A DNA stretch of 44,622 nucleotides from Candidatus Parcubacteria bacterium. GTDB lineage: Bacteria; Patescibacteriota; Minisyncoccia; UBA9983. The DNA lies in assembly GCA_003599625.1 (NCBI GenBank), contig QZIU01000019.1:1-44622 (forward strand). Direction: 5' to 3'. The notes under the pieces are model-generated. The model had not been told where the DNA came from, ran no database searches, and saw only the letters and a list, made by a program, of their open reading frames with translations. Every line of letters starts with the position of its first letter. Positions within the stretch are counted from its first letter, which is position 1. Below, in pieces: positions 28,531 to 33,523 of this stretch. Made by a program: the position numbers and the translations under genes.

Positions 28531-29084
28531 AGGTAAGTTCTGACGCGCACGAATAGCGTAACGACTGGAGGACTGTCTCGGGAAACAGCCCGGTGAAAAT
28601 ACAATACCGGTGAAGATGCCGGTTACCTGCAGCTAGACGAAAAGACCCCGGAAGCTTTACTACAACTTGGTATTGGCTTTAGGTTTTTAATGCGTAGCAT
28701 AGGCGGGAGGCTTTGAAGTGTTCCTTTTGGGGGACATGGAGCCGCCAGTGAAATACCGCTCTTTAAAAATCTAAAATCTAACCTCAGCGGCAAAAACGCT
28801 GGGAGACAGTGCCTGGCGGGTAGTTTGATTGGGGCGATTCCCTCCTAAAAAGTAACGGAGGGGTCTACAAAGGTCGGCTAGGCGCGGATGGAAACCGTGC
28901 CGATAGTGTAATGGCAAAAGCCGGCTTAACTGCAAGACGGACAGGTCGAGCAGATGCGAAAGCAGAGCATAGTGAACCGACCATGCGCATTAGACGCGGT
29001 GGAGGATTAACGGATAAAAGCTACTCCGGGGATAACAGGCTGGTAGTGCCCAAGAGTTCATATCGACGGCACTGTTCGGCACCT

Positions 29085-29417
29085 TAACATATCGGGGTGC
29101 GGCGCGAGAAATCGCGCAGCCGGGTCAAAGCATATTAGGAGAATGTGTTTTGATTGAAATATTGGCTTATAACGGTGAACTCCATGCTATTATATATACA
29201 TGGACAATACCGTGGGAAGTCTAATTCAATATCAGAAATCTATTGTTGTGTTGATAAAATGTATAATTGAATTATGACCCTGTAGAGACTTGTCATTATT
29301 AATATGACGGAGTTTTCATTTTTTAAAGTGGAAGCTAAGACGCCAACCCCTGTCTTTGGATTTTGACAGGGTGAAGATATAGTCCGATCCTGCCGGTAAC
29401 GGCAGAAAAACAAACAG
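29085..29417 (+). mobile_element. Group I intron in 23S rRNA at about U2500 (no ORF)
   Basis: Interrupts GGCACCT|CGATGTCGGCTC; 5' exon ends in T, intron ends in G; core elements AATACCGTGGGAAGT (P/Q), ACCCTGTAGAGACTTG (R), AAGATATAGTCC (S). Confidence 0.88.
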
Positions 29418-29510
29418 CGATGTCGGCTCAACCTATCCTGGGGCTGGAGAAGGTCCCAAGGGTTTGGCTGTTCGCCAATTAAAAGGTTACGTGAGCTGGG
29501 TTCAAACCGT

Positions 29511-30202
29511 CAATTTGGCGGCTCCCGATAGTAATATCGGGATGCAAAATCGACTCATATCGGTGGATTCCTAATAATACAATTGTGTTTCAACCTGTCG
29601 TATGTTAGGATAATACCGAGGGAAGTTGTGTATGCAAAACAAAATTTCGTCAACAACAATGGCGTATCTTGCTGGATTTTTGGATGGCGATGGAAGTATC
29701 TACGTGAGGCTTAAACCGAATTCTACTTATAAGTATGGATTTCAGGTTGCTCCTTATGTAGTTTTCTTTCAATCATCAAAAAGCAAAGAAAATTTTGAGA
29801 AAGCGTGTTCTTTAATGAACTTTGGTTATACCAGGGAGCGAAAAGATGGAATTATGGAATTCATAATTGGTAAAAACGAAGATATAAAGAAATTTCTCAA
29901 AATTGTTAAGCCCTATTCCATAATGAAAAAACAGCAAATACTTCTTATGATTGAAATACTTGATTTTAAAGAAAAAATTAAAAGCAAGGAAGAATTTGAA
30001 GTGTTGATAAAATTAATAAATCGTTTTCAGGAATTAAATTATTCTAAAAAACGAAAATTGCGTGCATTAACCCCGTAGAGACTTGTCAGTTTAACTGGCA
30101 GAGTCGTTGCAGTGAAAGTCTGCGACGGCTAACACGTCGATTATCCCTTTTTAAGGGATAGTGGTATAGTCCATACATTTAGTAATAAATGAAGATAATA
30201 TG
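29511..30202 (+). mobile_element. Group I intron in 23S rRNA at about U2593, encoding a LAGLIDADG ORF
   Basis: Interrupts AACCGT|CGTGAGACAG; 5' exon ends in T, intron ends in G; AATACCGAGGGAAGT (P/Q), ACCCCGTAGAGACTTG (R), GGTATAGTCC (S). Confidence 0.9.
29632..30078 (+). CDS. Single-motif LAGLIDADG homing endonuclease, I-CreI-like
   Basis: AYLAGFLDGDGSIYVRLKPNSTYKYGFQV...FGYTRERKDGIMEFIIG...FLKIVKPYSIMKKQQILLMIEIL...LNYSKKRKLRAL, resembling I-CreI throughout. Confidence 0.92.
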   Translation: MQNKISSTTMAYLAGFLDGDGSIYVRLKPNSTYKYGFQVAPYVVFFQSSKSKENFEKACSLMNFGYTRERKDGIMEFIIGKNEDIKKFLKIVKPYSIMKKQQILLMIEILDFKEKIKSKEEFEVLIKLINRFQELNYSKKRKLRALTP

Positions 30203-30375: not shown

Positions 30376-30544
30376 ACCCGCTCCAAGATTAGGAATCTTA
30401 GACAGGTTGTAGATGACGACCTCGATAGGCTCTAGGTGTACGCGCGGTAACGCGCTTAGCCGAGGAGTACTAATTGTCTTTTCCTGTTAGGAATTTTGTA
30501 AACTTTTTAAATTTTGAAACAAACCTGGATTTGAGTTCTTTAAT

Positions 30545-30649
30545 TCGGTGGCTTGGCGCCATGGAACCACCTGTTCCCATTCCGAACACAGAAGTGAAAC
30601 GTGGTAGCGGCGATGATACTCTTCGGGGGAAAGTAGCTAGCCGCCGGTT
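30545..30649 (+). rRNA. rrf: 5S rRNA
   Basis: CACCTGTTCCCATTCCGAACACAGAAGTGAAACGTGGTAGCGGCGATGATACTC; termini pair GGTGGCT/AGCCGCC. Confidence 0.93.
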
Positions 30650-30675: not shown

Positions 30676-30711
30676 AACCCATACGTCGAAATGACGGGTG
30701 GGTTTTTTCTT
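30676..30711 (+). terminator. rRNA operon terminator
   Basis: AACCCATACGTCGAAATGACGGGTGGGTTTTTT. Confidence 0.85.
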
Positions 30712-30741: not shown

Positions 30742-30771
30742 TTGACAACTCAATGGGGGGGGTGCTAGGCT
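30742..30771 (+). promoter_or_regulatory. Candidate promoter with G8 tract in spacer
   Basis: TTGACA, 18-nt spacer ACTCAATGGGGGGGGTGC, then TAGGCT (extended -10 TGCTAGGCT). Confidence 0.5.
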
Positions 30772-30925
30772 GAAGACTAGAAAAGATTCTTTAACAACAA
30801 AATACAAACAAAATCCTGTTTTCTGAATGATAATTCCAGCGCGTAACGCTTAAATGAAAATCAGTGTTGATTTTCAGCTTGAATGATTGTAAGGGGAAAA
30901 GGTGAGGAGGGAGGAATAAAAAACC

Positions 30926-31081
30926 ATGGAAAGAGAGCAGAAAGACTTACTTGTTATGACCGTTGATGATTTGAAAATTGGTGAAGACTTCCAGTTTTTA
31001 ACGGATGAACAGCTAGAGTTTTTGGCTGTTTGCGGAATCTGTAGCAATTGTTGTTATTCAGATTGCATTGGTGGGAATTAA
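30926..31081 (+). CDS. Cys-rich small peptide, candidate RiPP precursor
   Basis: MEREQKDLLVMTVDDLKIGEDFQFLTDEQLEFLAVCGICSNCCYSDCIGGN*; RBS-like AGGAGGGAGGAA upstream; directly before a radical SAM/SPASM gene. Not in the ORF track (51 aa). Confidence 0.75.
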   Translation: MEREQKDLLVMTVDDLKIGEDFQFLTDEQLEFLAVCGICSNCCYSDCIGGN

Positions 31082-31105
31082 GTAAGCCACTGTGCGAATA
31101 ATTTA

Positions 31106-31137
31106 TGCAGGGGTAAAATTTAAATTTTACCCCTGCA
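31106..31137 (+). promoter_or_regulatory. Perfect 32-bp palindrome between peptide and radical SAM genes
   Basis: TGCAGGGGTAAAATTT|AAATTTTACCCCTGCA. Confidence 0.85.
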
Positions 31138-31155
31138 ATTTAAAAGGAGGTTAAA

Positions 31156-32223
31156 ATGATAAAATTGTGTCAATGGGACATTACTGGAGAATGTAATCTA
31201 AACTGCTCTTACTGCAGAGAAAAAAGAACAGAAAAGTTAACCACTCTCAATTTAGGGCAAATTTTTTCAATTATTGATCAGTTTGTAGACATGGAAGTTA
31301 AGATGGTAAATATTGCGGGAGGAGAACCATTAATTTTTAAGGAATTGCCAAAAGTATTGTCTTATCTAAGGCCTAAAGTAGAAACACTTGGTCTCACAAC
31401 AAACGCTACTCTCGTTTCTAATAAAAACGTAAGCATTATCAAAGATTTTTTTGATGGTGTGCAAGTAAGTCTAGATGGCGGCAACGCCAAGACACATGAT
31501 TCAGTAAGAGGCATTGGAACATTCAAAAAAACCGTCTGTGCTATTGAGTTAATGGTGAAAAAAGGTATTAATGTTATGACAAGGTTGACCATAACTCATC
31601 AGAATAAACACGATATTGCTAATTACATAAAACTCGCTTCTAGTTTAGGGTTAAAATCTGCCTATCTAAGAAGAGTTATCCCTAGTGGCAATAGCTATAA
31701 AACAGAACCACTTTCTTCTGACGAACTATTTCATGTTTTTAAAATTGCACATGCAACAGGAAAAAAATTCAATATACACATTGGTTCTGCTGATTATTTT
31801 TCTCAAATTTATTTTGATCAAAACGAGAAGTTAAAGGTAGAGAAAAATATGCAAGACCACCCTGGTAAGGTTTTAAGCGGTTGTTCAATAGGGATTGATG
31901 CGTTCTATGTAGCGCAAGATGGACAAGTTTTGTTCTGTCCTTATTTGCCTGTGTTTTGTGGTGACATGACTAAGGAACATTTATCAAGCATATGGGAAAA
32001 ATCTAGAATGTTTAAGATCAATCGCAATCTAAGAATGAACATTGAAGGAAAGTGTTCGAAATGCAAATATCTAATGTGTTGTGGCGGTTGTCCCGCTTAT
32101 GCTTTTCTTACCGAAGGCAAAATTACAGCATCTGATGCTGGCTGCTGGGTGAATGAACAGTCTTCCGTGTCAAATGATTTAACTATGACACCGAAACAGG
32201 TTCGGTTGAATGATTTATCATGA
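31156..32223 (+). CDS. Radical SAM/SPASM peptide-maturase-like protein
   Basis: CNLNCSYC cluster motif, NIAGGEPLIFKEL, GVQVSLDGG; C-terminal SPASM-like cysteines CSIGIDAFYVAQDGQVLFCPYLPVFCGD...CSKCKYLMCCGGCPAY...GCW; RBS AAAGGAGG. Confidence 0.88.
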   Translation: MIKLCQWDITGECNLNCSYCREKRTEKLTTLNLGQIFSIIDQFVDMEVKMVNIAGGEPLIFKELPKVLSYLRPKVETLGLTTNATLVSNKNVSIIKDFFDGVQVSLDGGNAKTHDSVRGIGTFKKTVCAIELMVKKGINVMTRLTITHQNKHDIANYIKLASSLGLKSAYLRRVIPSGNSYKTEPLSSDELFHVFKIAHATGKKFNIHIGSADYFSQIYFDQNEKLKVEKNMQDHPGKVLSGCSIGIDAFYVAQDGQVLFCPYLPVFCGDMTKEHLSSIWEKSRMFKINRNLRMNIEGKCSKCKYLMCCGGCPAYAFLTEGKITASDAGCWVNEQSSVSNDLTMTPKQVRLNDLS

Positions 32224-33523
32224 CACCGAAATTTCTCTTAATTTTATCCGGCGGCTTGATTCGACCGACAAGCCGCTTTTTGCTGTCATGGGTTTTCTGC
32301 AAGAGGTTAAGTTTCTTCCTGATGCTCCGTCTCAATTCGGCGGGATTCAAAGATTCGTAAAGAGTCTTCAATTCTTTCTTTTTTTCCGCCGAAACTTTGT
32401 CCGATTCCATAAGTCTTCCGTAAGGAGTCTTAGCTTTGTCGTATTTCTTCTTTATCTTGCCTTTTATCCTGGTTTTGGGCACAAGCTTGATGACCGGCTG
32501 GAAGAAATTCTTGAACAATCTCAGTTCGTTTCGGTAAAGATCGGAAAGAATTTGTCTTTCGGTTTCCGTGTCGTACCTAAGATAGCCGACCTCTTTTCTG
32601 ACATGGGTGGAATTCTTTTGCTCTACGAAACAATTGTCATTCTTCTTGTGCGGTCTTGATCTGGACAAATCTATGTTATTGTCCAGGCTGTATCTGTAGA
32701 TGTGATAGTTCATTATGTTTCCGCCGTTGTCCGGATGCATTTCTTTCCAAACGAAGGGAGAGCGGTTTCTGGCTTGATCTATGGACTGAAGGGCTCTTTC
32801 TTGACCTTTGCCCATTACCGCGTCTCCTTCCCACCAGCCGGAGAATATGCCAGTGACGGAAAGGGAATTTACTAATTCTCCCGAAGCCGAGGCTCCGCAA
32901 TGTTCGACAAAATCGATCTGCTCGGTTCCCGGATTTTCCCTGTCCAGTTCGGCGCTTGTTTTGGCGGGAACTTCGCTCTTCAAAGGAAAGTTATGGCTTT
33001 TCTTGCATTTTCTTCTTTCCCGCATGACTTCCTTTTCATGCTCCAGTTTCTTGTCTATGGTGGACGAGGTCATTTGCTTCAATTTATCGGCTGTTTCGTC
33101 GGAACAAATCAATTCTTTCAGCTTCTCACTCTGTCGGTCTCTTCCTTTAAGATCGTTTCCATTCTTTGGCCGCAAGGATAGTCAAAAATCTTCCACATGA
33201 CGGCCAGAGCCGTTCTGACCGGTCCGTCGTAATATTCTTTCCTCTTTTTTTCGTTTCCTTCAACTTGACCTTGTAATTAAACTTCTTGATGGCATATTTT
33301 CTTTCTTGTTCGAGATTTCTGCAATATTCATCAAGGATTAGACCTTTTTCCTTCTTACCCGCTTTGAGATACCTTTCTCTTAAGGTGTCCATATATTGTT
33401 TGGTGCTTTCCTTGTTCATTGCTTTGACTATTAAACCGATAATTGTCAAAGCAATTTAGCATAAATATTATTTCGGTATCTTTTTATCTCATTTATCCGA
33501 TGGGGCTATAGTGTCATTTTAGG
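32186..33523 (-). mobile_element. Decayed insertion sequence, approximate limits
   Basis: Transposase remnant flanked by TGACAC sequences (32186/32221 and GTGTCA near 33518); exact TIRs not established. Confidence 0.5.
32210..33449 (-). pseudogene. DDE integrase/transposase, frameshifted
   Basis: rve-type segments IDFVEHCG, HPDNGGNIMN, FVEQKNSTHVRKEVGYLRYD. N-terminal part in another frame (ERKYAIKKFNYKVKLKETKK); linking segment EYYDGPVRTALAVMWKIFDYPCGQRMETI in a third register. Confidence 0.85.

Follow-up and report, generated by a model that had tools for sequence, protein, structure and literature searches.

The question raised by this locus is whether a short Cys-rich peptide encoded just upstream of a radical SAM (rSAM)/SPASM protein is the precursor on which that protein acts, i.e., whether the two genes make up a RiPP system. 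The locus lies in a stretch of 44,622 nucleotides (hereafter the window), coming from a 96%-complete genome of 906 kb in 35 contigs, which belongs to Patescibacteria (CPR), in agreement with the CPR-type genome proposed by the first-pass annotation. As argued below, the best reading is a precursor–maturase pair that is new in sequence and known in kind. The features on which the argument relies are as follows.

30544-30649: 5S rRNA, the end of the rRNA operon upstream of the locus.
30684..30696, + strand: terminator-like (intrinsic) stem, closing the rRNA operon that immediately precedes the locus.
30904..30915, + strand: Shine-Dalgarno (SD) region GAGGAGGGAGGA of the peptide gene, read directly, SD score 6.
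30926..31081, + strand: candidate precursor peptide of 51 aa, MEREQKDLLVMTVDDLKIGEDFQFLTDEQLEFLAVCGICSNCCYSDCIGGN, with an ATG start.
31031..31078, + strand: putative core CGICSNCCYSDCIGGN (C-x2-C-x2-CC-x3-C), from the sequence.
31107..31136, + strand: perfect 30-nt palindrome GCAGGGGTAAAATTTAAATTTTACCCCTGC between the two genes, single in the window.
31145..31150, + strand: SD sequence AGGAGG of the enzyme gene, read directly.
31156..32223, + strand: rSAM/SPASM protein of 355 aa, candidate peptide maturase, from domain matches.
32185..33517, - strand: decayed DDE-type transposon, from repeat alignment and a weak rve match (E=0.069).
32185-32232 and 33470-33517: 48-nt imperfect terminal repeats of the transposon, from repeat alignment.

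We consider the peptide first. The open reading frame at 30926-31081 is as the first-pass annotation had described it, with 51 codons, an acidic N-terminus and a Cys-rich tail, to which a strong SD can now be added. Residues 1-35 are leader-like, being acidic and containing the helix-forming FLTDEQLEFLA, and residues 36-51 constitute the Cys-rich putative core of 16 residues, having 5 Cys in 12 residues. It is noted that LTDEQLEFLA, located just 5' of the Cys-rich tail, resembles by eye the leaders of known RiPPs, which we take as a lead; the single-sequence AlphaFold2 model of the peptide, with a helix at residues 27-37 only and low confidence, is too poor for use. Within the window this is the sole ATG-started, SD-preceded ORF of at most 90 aa with such a Cys density (5 in 12 residues); Markov shuffling of the window, repeated 60 times, gave no ORF of this kind. 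The combination of the Cys-rich tail with the SD is improbable by chance. No match to the peptide at E<=1 was present in Pfam or NCBIfam, no relative at a meaningful E-value in 188 related genomes (the weak matches there, with E of 0.007-1, being taken as chance), and none in viral contigs. The exact Cys-spacing pattern has matches in 87 of the 384 genomes of the class, many of them of low complexity, and in none of the 30 pattern-match loci that were read did it lie in a small SD-preceded ORF.

We then consider the enzyme. The CNLNCSYC motif and the C-terminal SPASM region that had been pointed out earlier are borne out by matches to PF04055 (6e-22) and PF13186 (1.3e-6), both above cut-off. 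Thus the protein has both the CxxxCxxC core and the C-terminal SPASM cluster domain, with the ligands conserved in the alignment; the conserved SPASM Cys set includes C243, C261, C300, C303, C309 and C330, and the spacing C-x2-C-x5-C-x2-C is common to CPR relatives. In the AlphaFold2 model (pLDDT 88.6, pTM 0.88) the chain reaches the core barrel by residue 4, and therefore an N-terminal RRE is absent, as had also been remarked before. SPASM maturases with no fused RRE exist, PqqE relying on PqqD in trans, and for several rSAM enzymes the leader is dispensable (PMC8326336). In the comparison of folds the best matches of the model are CteB, SuiB, SkfB and anSME, CteB being the top one; the best single-sequence PDB match is SkfB, and a profile of 16 CPR relatives set against solved structures gave PqqE, SkfB, CteB (5wgg) and anSME as the best, followed by SuiB. 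Among the best 25 NCBIfam models listed for the enzyme none meets its own cut-off, the best being AhbD with 175.6 bits vs a cut-off of 500 bits and the next ones TIGR04053, WgkB and NirJ. In line with the earlier remark on the spacing, the system matches no named class.

The two genes are arranged as a precursor gene and its enzyme gene would be, with the short ORF upstream on the same strand, and the operon is putative. The spacing of 74 nt that had been claimed follows directly from the ORFs at 30926-31081 and 31156-32223. As RNA, the palindrome lying in this gap would form a strong hairpin (-21.8 kcal/mol). We rejected it as a terminator, no U-tract following the hairpin; it may set the ratio of peptide to enzyme expression. 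On the 5' side of the locus there is the rRNA operon, where the 23S rRNA gene with a group I intron is followed by the 5S rRNA gene. A TTGACA is present at 30742, the coordinate at which the first-pass annotation began the locus, and since the consensus scan gave no matching -10 for it, a promoter there is unproven. Farther 3' of the locus are a methyltransferase-like ORF and RodA/FtsW, FolD and RlmN being named from sequence only. Near the locus no gene for a protease, a transporter/exporter or an RRE was recognised. In the whole genome no match was present to the C39 peptidase or to the PqqD family (PF05402), the latter negative being limited since PF05402 overlooks most types of RRE (PMC7470986).

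As a side observation on the 23S rRNA gene (window 29073-30200), the group I intron at 29073-29406 is an Rfam match, and an apparent second group I intron, as judged by eye, contains an ORF at 29626-30078 for a LAGLIDADG endonuclease (PF00961, 4e-10).

Two properties of the locus bear on its history. The G+C content is 0.37 for the peptide gene and 0.35 for the enzyme gene vs 0.45-0.47 for the flanking core genes, and this difference suggests horizontal acquisition. Moreover, the left end of the transposon contributes the final 12 codons of the enzyme gene together with its stop codon, giving the C-terminus MTPKQVRLNDLS; the 351-nt left end that was tested is present in a single copy in the genome. 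Since in the alignment most relatives of the enzyme stop at or shortly past the final Cys, the core and SPASM domains are complete despite the transposon-derived tail.

Next, we consider the relatives of the enzyme and the small genes beside them. The enzyme is at most 35% identical to its relatives in 188 related, 384 class and 380 phylum genomes. None was confirmed in the species-genome and viral contig collections, and the plasmid and phage collections contain distant rSAM proteins only, with identities of at most 27.8% and 30.7%, respectively, among the matches listed. In a tree of 44 rows the enzyme is a long branch with weak support, and it groups weakly with CPR enzymes that adjoin small peptides. 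Three of these (G221, G149 and G205) each have a conserved FVTSCSTCMGKEG peptide on the 3' side, in three genomes. Three others (G504, G696 and G489), again in three genomes, have on their 5' side a peptide that ends in [KR]VRIG[KQ]xxCxxCD or nearly so, and that of a fourth genome (G007) is preceded by a related peptide ending in GKNTCSTSGSYK. The peptides of G172, G185 and G008 have a leader of the YNYWRR/K- or YQYWRK-type and a Cys-rich tail, and in a clade of enzymes of ~440 aa several adjoin peptides with tails such as CPDCYDCDINCEECDSCNCNE. The peptides of the FVTSCSTCMGKEG and VRIG types adjoin enzymes that are ~26-28% identical to the window enzyme, and two of the small Cys-bearing peptides beside such Patescibacteria enzymes are conserved families.

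That this adjacency exceeds the expectation can be seen from two counts. The first covers 557 kb of DNA surrounding such enzymes, where each of the 5 SD-preceded, ATG-started ORFs with 5 or more Cys in 12 residues adjoins an rSAM gene, i.e., lies within 100 nt of one on the same strand. Leaving out the window locus the count is 4 of 4, with p about 4e-6, where the loci had been chosen for their rSAM genes and the null is the fraction of this DNA that flanks rSAM genes. In the other count, same-strand, SD-preceded small ORFs of the CxxC type accompany 9 of 56 enzymes vs 8 of 246 other genes (p=0.001), several of the 8 being the same peptides counted from their other neighbour. The association of SPASM enzymes with such peptides is thus enriched. 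It is not universal, because with these criteria 47 of the 56 enzymes have no such peptide within 300 nt.

Some further loci that were read are also worth recording. The enzymes of the ~440-aa SPASM clade (L061, L068, L070, L071, L078 and L080) have a C-terminal extension of ~100 residues, which looks PqqD-like by eye, with no PqqD match in Pfam for the two tested, and they mostly adjoin very Cys-rich peptides. A recurring family of peptides ending in CSDCxCxDGDC or similar (L062 14080-14223, L071 5100-5240 and L078 3514-3645) adjoins PapB-like enzymes, that of L062 scoring 150 bits vs a cut-off of 340. At L059 2449-2592 a peptide weakly similar to the FibroRumin Cys-rich RiPP (5.5e-4, below cut-off) adjoins an rSAM protein of 462 aa. 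His-Xaa-Ser repeats occur as well: at L053 14169-18150, in a CPR genome, HxsA4-like repeat peptides (1.4e-9, below cut-off) adjoin two rSAM genes and are surrounded by a stretch of ~20 kb with more than 10 rSAM genes; at L060 1503-3068 an ORF of 521 aa with a SQHSQHS repeat tract lies directly 3' of an rSAM/SPASM gene and is possibly a long substrate of the His-Xaa-Ser type.

Besides a precursor and its maturase, other explanations for the two genes should be weighed. One is that the protein is a SPASM enzyme of a tetrapyrrole pathway, like AhbD or NirJ, with the adjoining small ORF being unrelated to it. It is AhbD that is the top curated model, with TIGR04053, WgkB and NirJ behind it, and the SPASM spacing of the enzyme is shared with the CPR relatives that score best against AhbD or NirJ2. 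However, the score is far under the 500-bit equivalog cut-off, which none of the 384 class genomes reaches, and no match to ALAD (PF00490) is present in this 96%-complete genome, a check that covers the ALAD step alone and is compatible with scavenging. Moreover, relatives with equal scores of the AhbD/NirJ2 type adjoin small Cys-bearing peptides. Because of the lacking ALAD match and the cut-off unreached in the class, a role in haem synthesis is quite unlikely, and we rejected it on these two grounds. The first-pass annotation had held that an rSAM clade with a known non-peptide substrate would speak against a RiPP; in the part of this that was checked, the best curated model is the haem enzyme AhbD, at 175 vs 500 bits, with no ALAD match in the genome.

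It can also be argued that the peptide is free-standing, either binding metal (metallothionein-like or cluster-binding) or acting as a small regulator, and that the target of the enzyme is a different protein, as it is for anSME. A stretch of 12 residues with five Cys can bind metal with no modification, the structural comparison places anSME among the best matches of the enzyme, and genes for processing or export are absent nearby. Against this, the two genes are tightly adjacent on the same strand and unrelated Cys-rich peptides repeatedly adjoin SPASM genes in the class, so that we regard it as improbable, if less so than the haem role. The slightest probability is given to the 51-codon ORF being untranslated or the locus being an acquired fragment now in decay and devoid of function: although the low G+C (0.37 and 0.35 vs 0.45-0.47 in the flanks), the transposon insertion at the end of the enzyme gene and the lack of relatives would fit such decay, the frames are intact, the SDs strong and all the iron-sulfur ligands conserved, and a Cys-rich tail with an SD is unlikely to arise by chance.

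We thus consider it probable that this is a two-gene rSAM RiPP locus, composed of a 51-aa precursor and a SPASM maturase, with a putative thioether mechanism. The earlier proposal of a RiPP precursor with its SPASM maturase gains support from the distant enzyme relatives that adjoin small Cys-bearing peptides, and at the locus itself the adjacent genes run in the same direction, both with a strong SD. The thioether or metal-binding nature of the product, proposed there as well, is conjectural. What weighs against the pair is that it is unreplicated, since the collections searched yielded neither a relative of the peptide nor a close one of the enzyme, that most of the SPASM enzymes compared have no such peptide close by, that no RRE, protease or exporter gene was recognised near the locus, that the end of the enzyme gene has been altered by the transposon, and that the best-scoring curated model is an enzyme of the haem pathway. 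Based on the precursor–maturase reading, we infer that the 51-aa peptide is the enzyme's substrate, and the following steps can be envisaged. The peptide would be made ribosomally as a precursor with a leader-like N-terminus of ~35 residues and a Cys-rich core of 16 residues, and the SPASM protein would bind it with no RRE, presumably by recognising the leader. SAM would then be reduced at the core [4Fe-4S] cluster of the enzyme, the resulting 5'-deoxyadenosyl radical would abstract hydrogen from one of the residues of the core, and a core Cys, probably bound via the SPASM auxiliary cluster, would attack the radical so formed, leading to one or more thioether cross-links, thioether chemistry being the most likely for the product. 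The leader would presumably then be removed and the product exported and used, with no gene for these steps found nearby.

In the literature searched, a report on graspetides (PMC8939145) is the sole one found on RiPPs of CPR, and no paper linking Patescibacteria with SPASM enzymes was found. The two-gene pair is small enough for direct testing by co-expression, and the wider pattern of rSAM genes and peptides in Patescibacteria is of more interest than the window locus alone. The genomes of Patescibacteria are very small and encode few biosynthetic pathways, and these bacteria are believed to live on other cells. A radical enzyme for peptide modification, encoded together with the precursor that it would act on, suggests a product whose target is the host, a competitor or a metal. 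A broader view, which we hold only tentatively and think rather doubtful as a whole, is that the enzyme is one of a broad, uncharted group of Patescibacteria SPASM enzymes that mature peptides independently of an RRE and act on several unrelated families of Cys-bearing precursors, yielding cross-linked or metal-binding peptides used by host-dependent cells.

Finally, we compare the locus with known systems. As in the sactipeptides (of the AlbA, SkfB, StsB and ruminococcin C type), the enzyme is of the SPASM kind and the core contains Cys; by contrast, the enzyme scores only 64.6 bits vs a cut-off of 850 for AlbA and 96.3 bits vs 625 for StsB, and the locus has no RRE, genes for an exporter or for immunity not being seen in its vicinity. 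With the ranthipeptides (SCIFF/CteA-CteB and PapA-PapB, freyrasin) it shares a short Cys-rich precursor beside a SPASM enzyme, and CteB is the top fold match. However, CteB has an N-terminal RRE while the window enzyme starts at the core barrel, and against PapB the score is 78.1 bits vs a cut-off of 340. The SCIFF maturase model is absent among the best 25 NCBIfam models listed for the enzyme, and the ranthipeptide precursor models gave no match to the peptide. The one C-x3-D stretch of the core (CCYSD) presumably resembles the repeat of PapA, from which the peptide differs in having only one C-x3-D. In size, in the direct start at the rSAM core, in SPASM spacing and in the best model scores, the enzyme is like AhbD/NirJ, ACGX, GeoRSP, SynChlorMet and WgkB; yet all these scores are far below cut-off and the partner genes were not seen. 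As to the pairs in other Patescibacteria (the FVTSCSTCMGKEG, VRIGKGSCxICD and CQVACxSDPCQ types), their peptides are unrelated to that of the window and the grouping of the enzymes is weak, whereas the arrangement is alike, with a small Cys-bearing peptide encoded on the same strand within ~130 nt of the enzyme gene.
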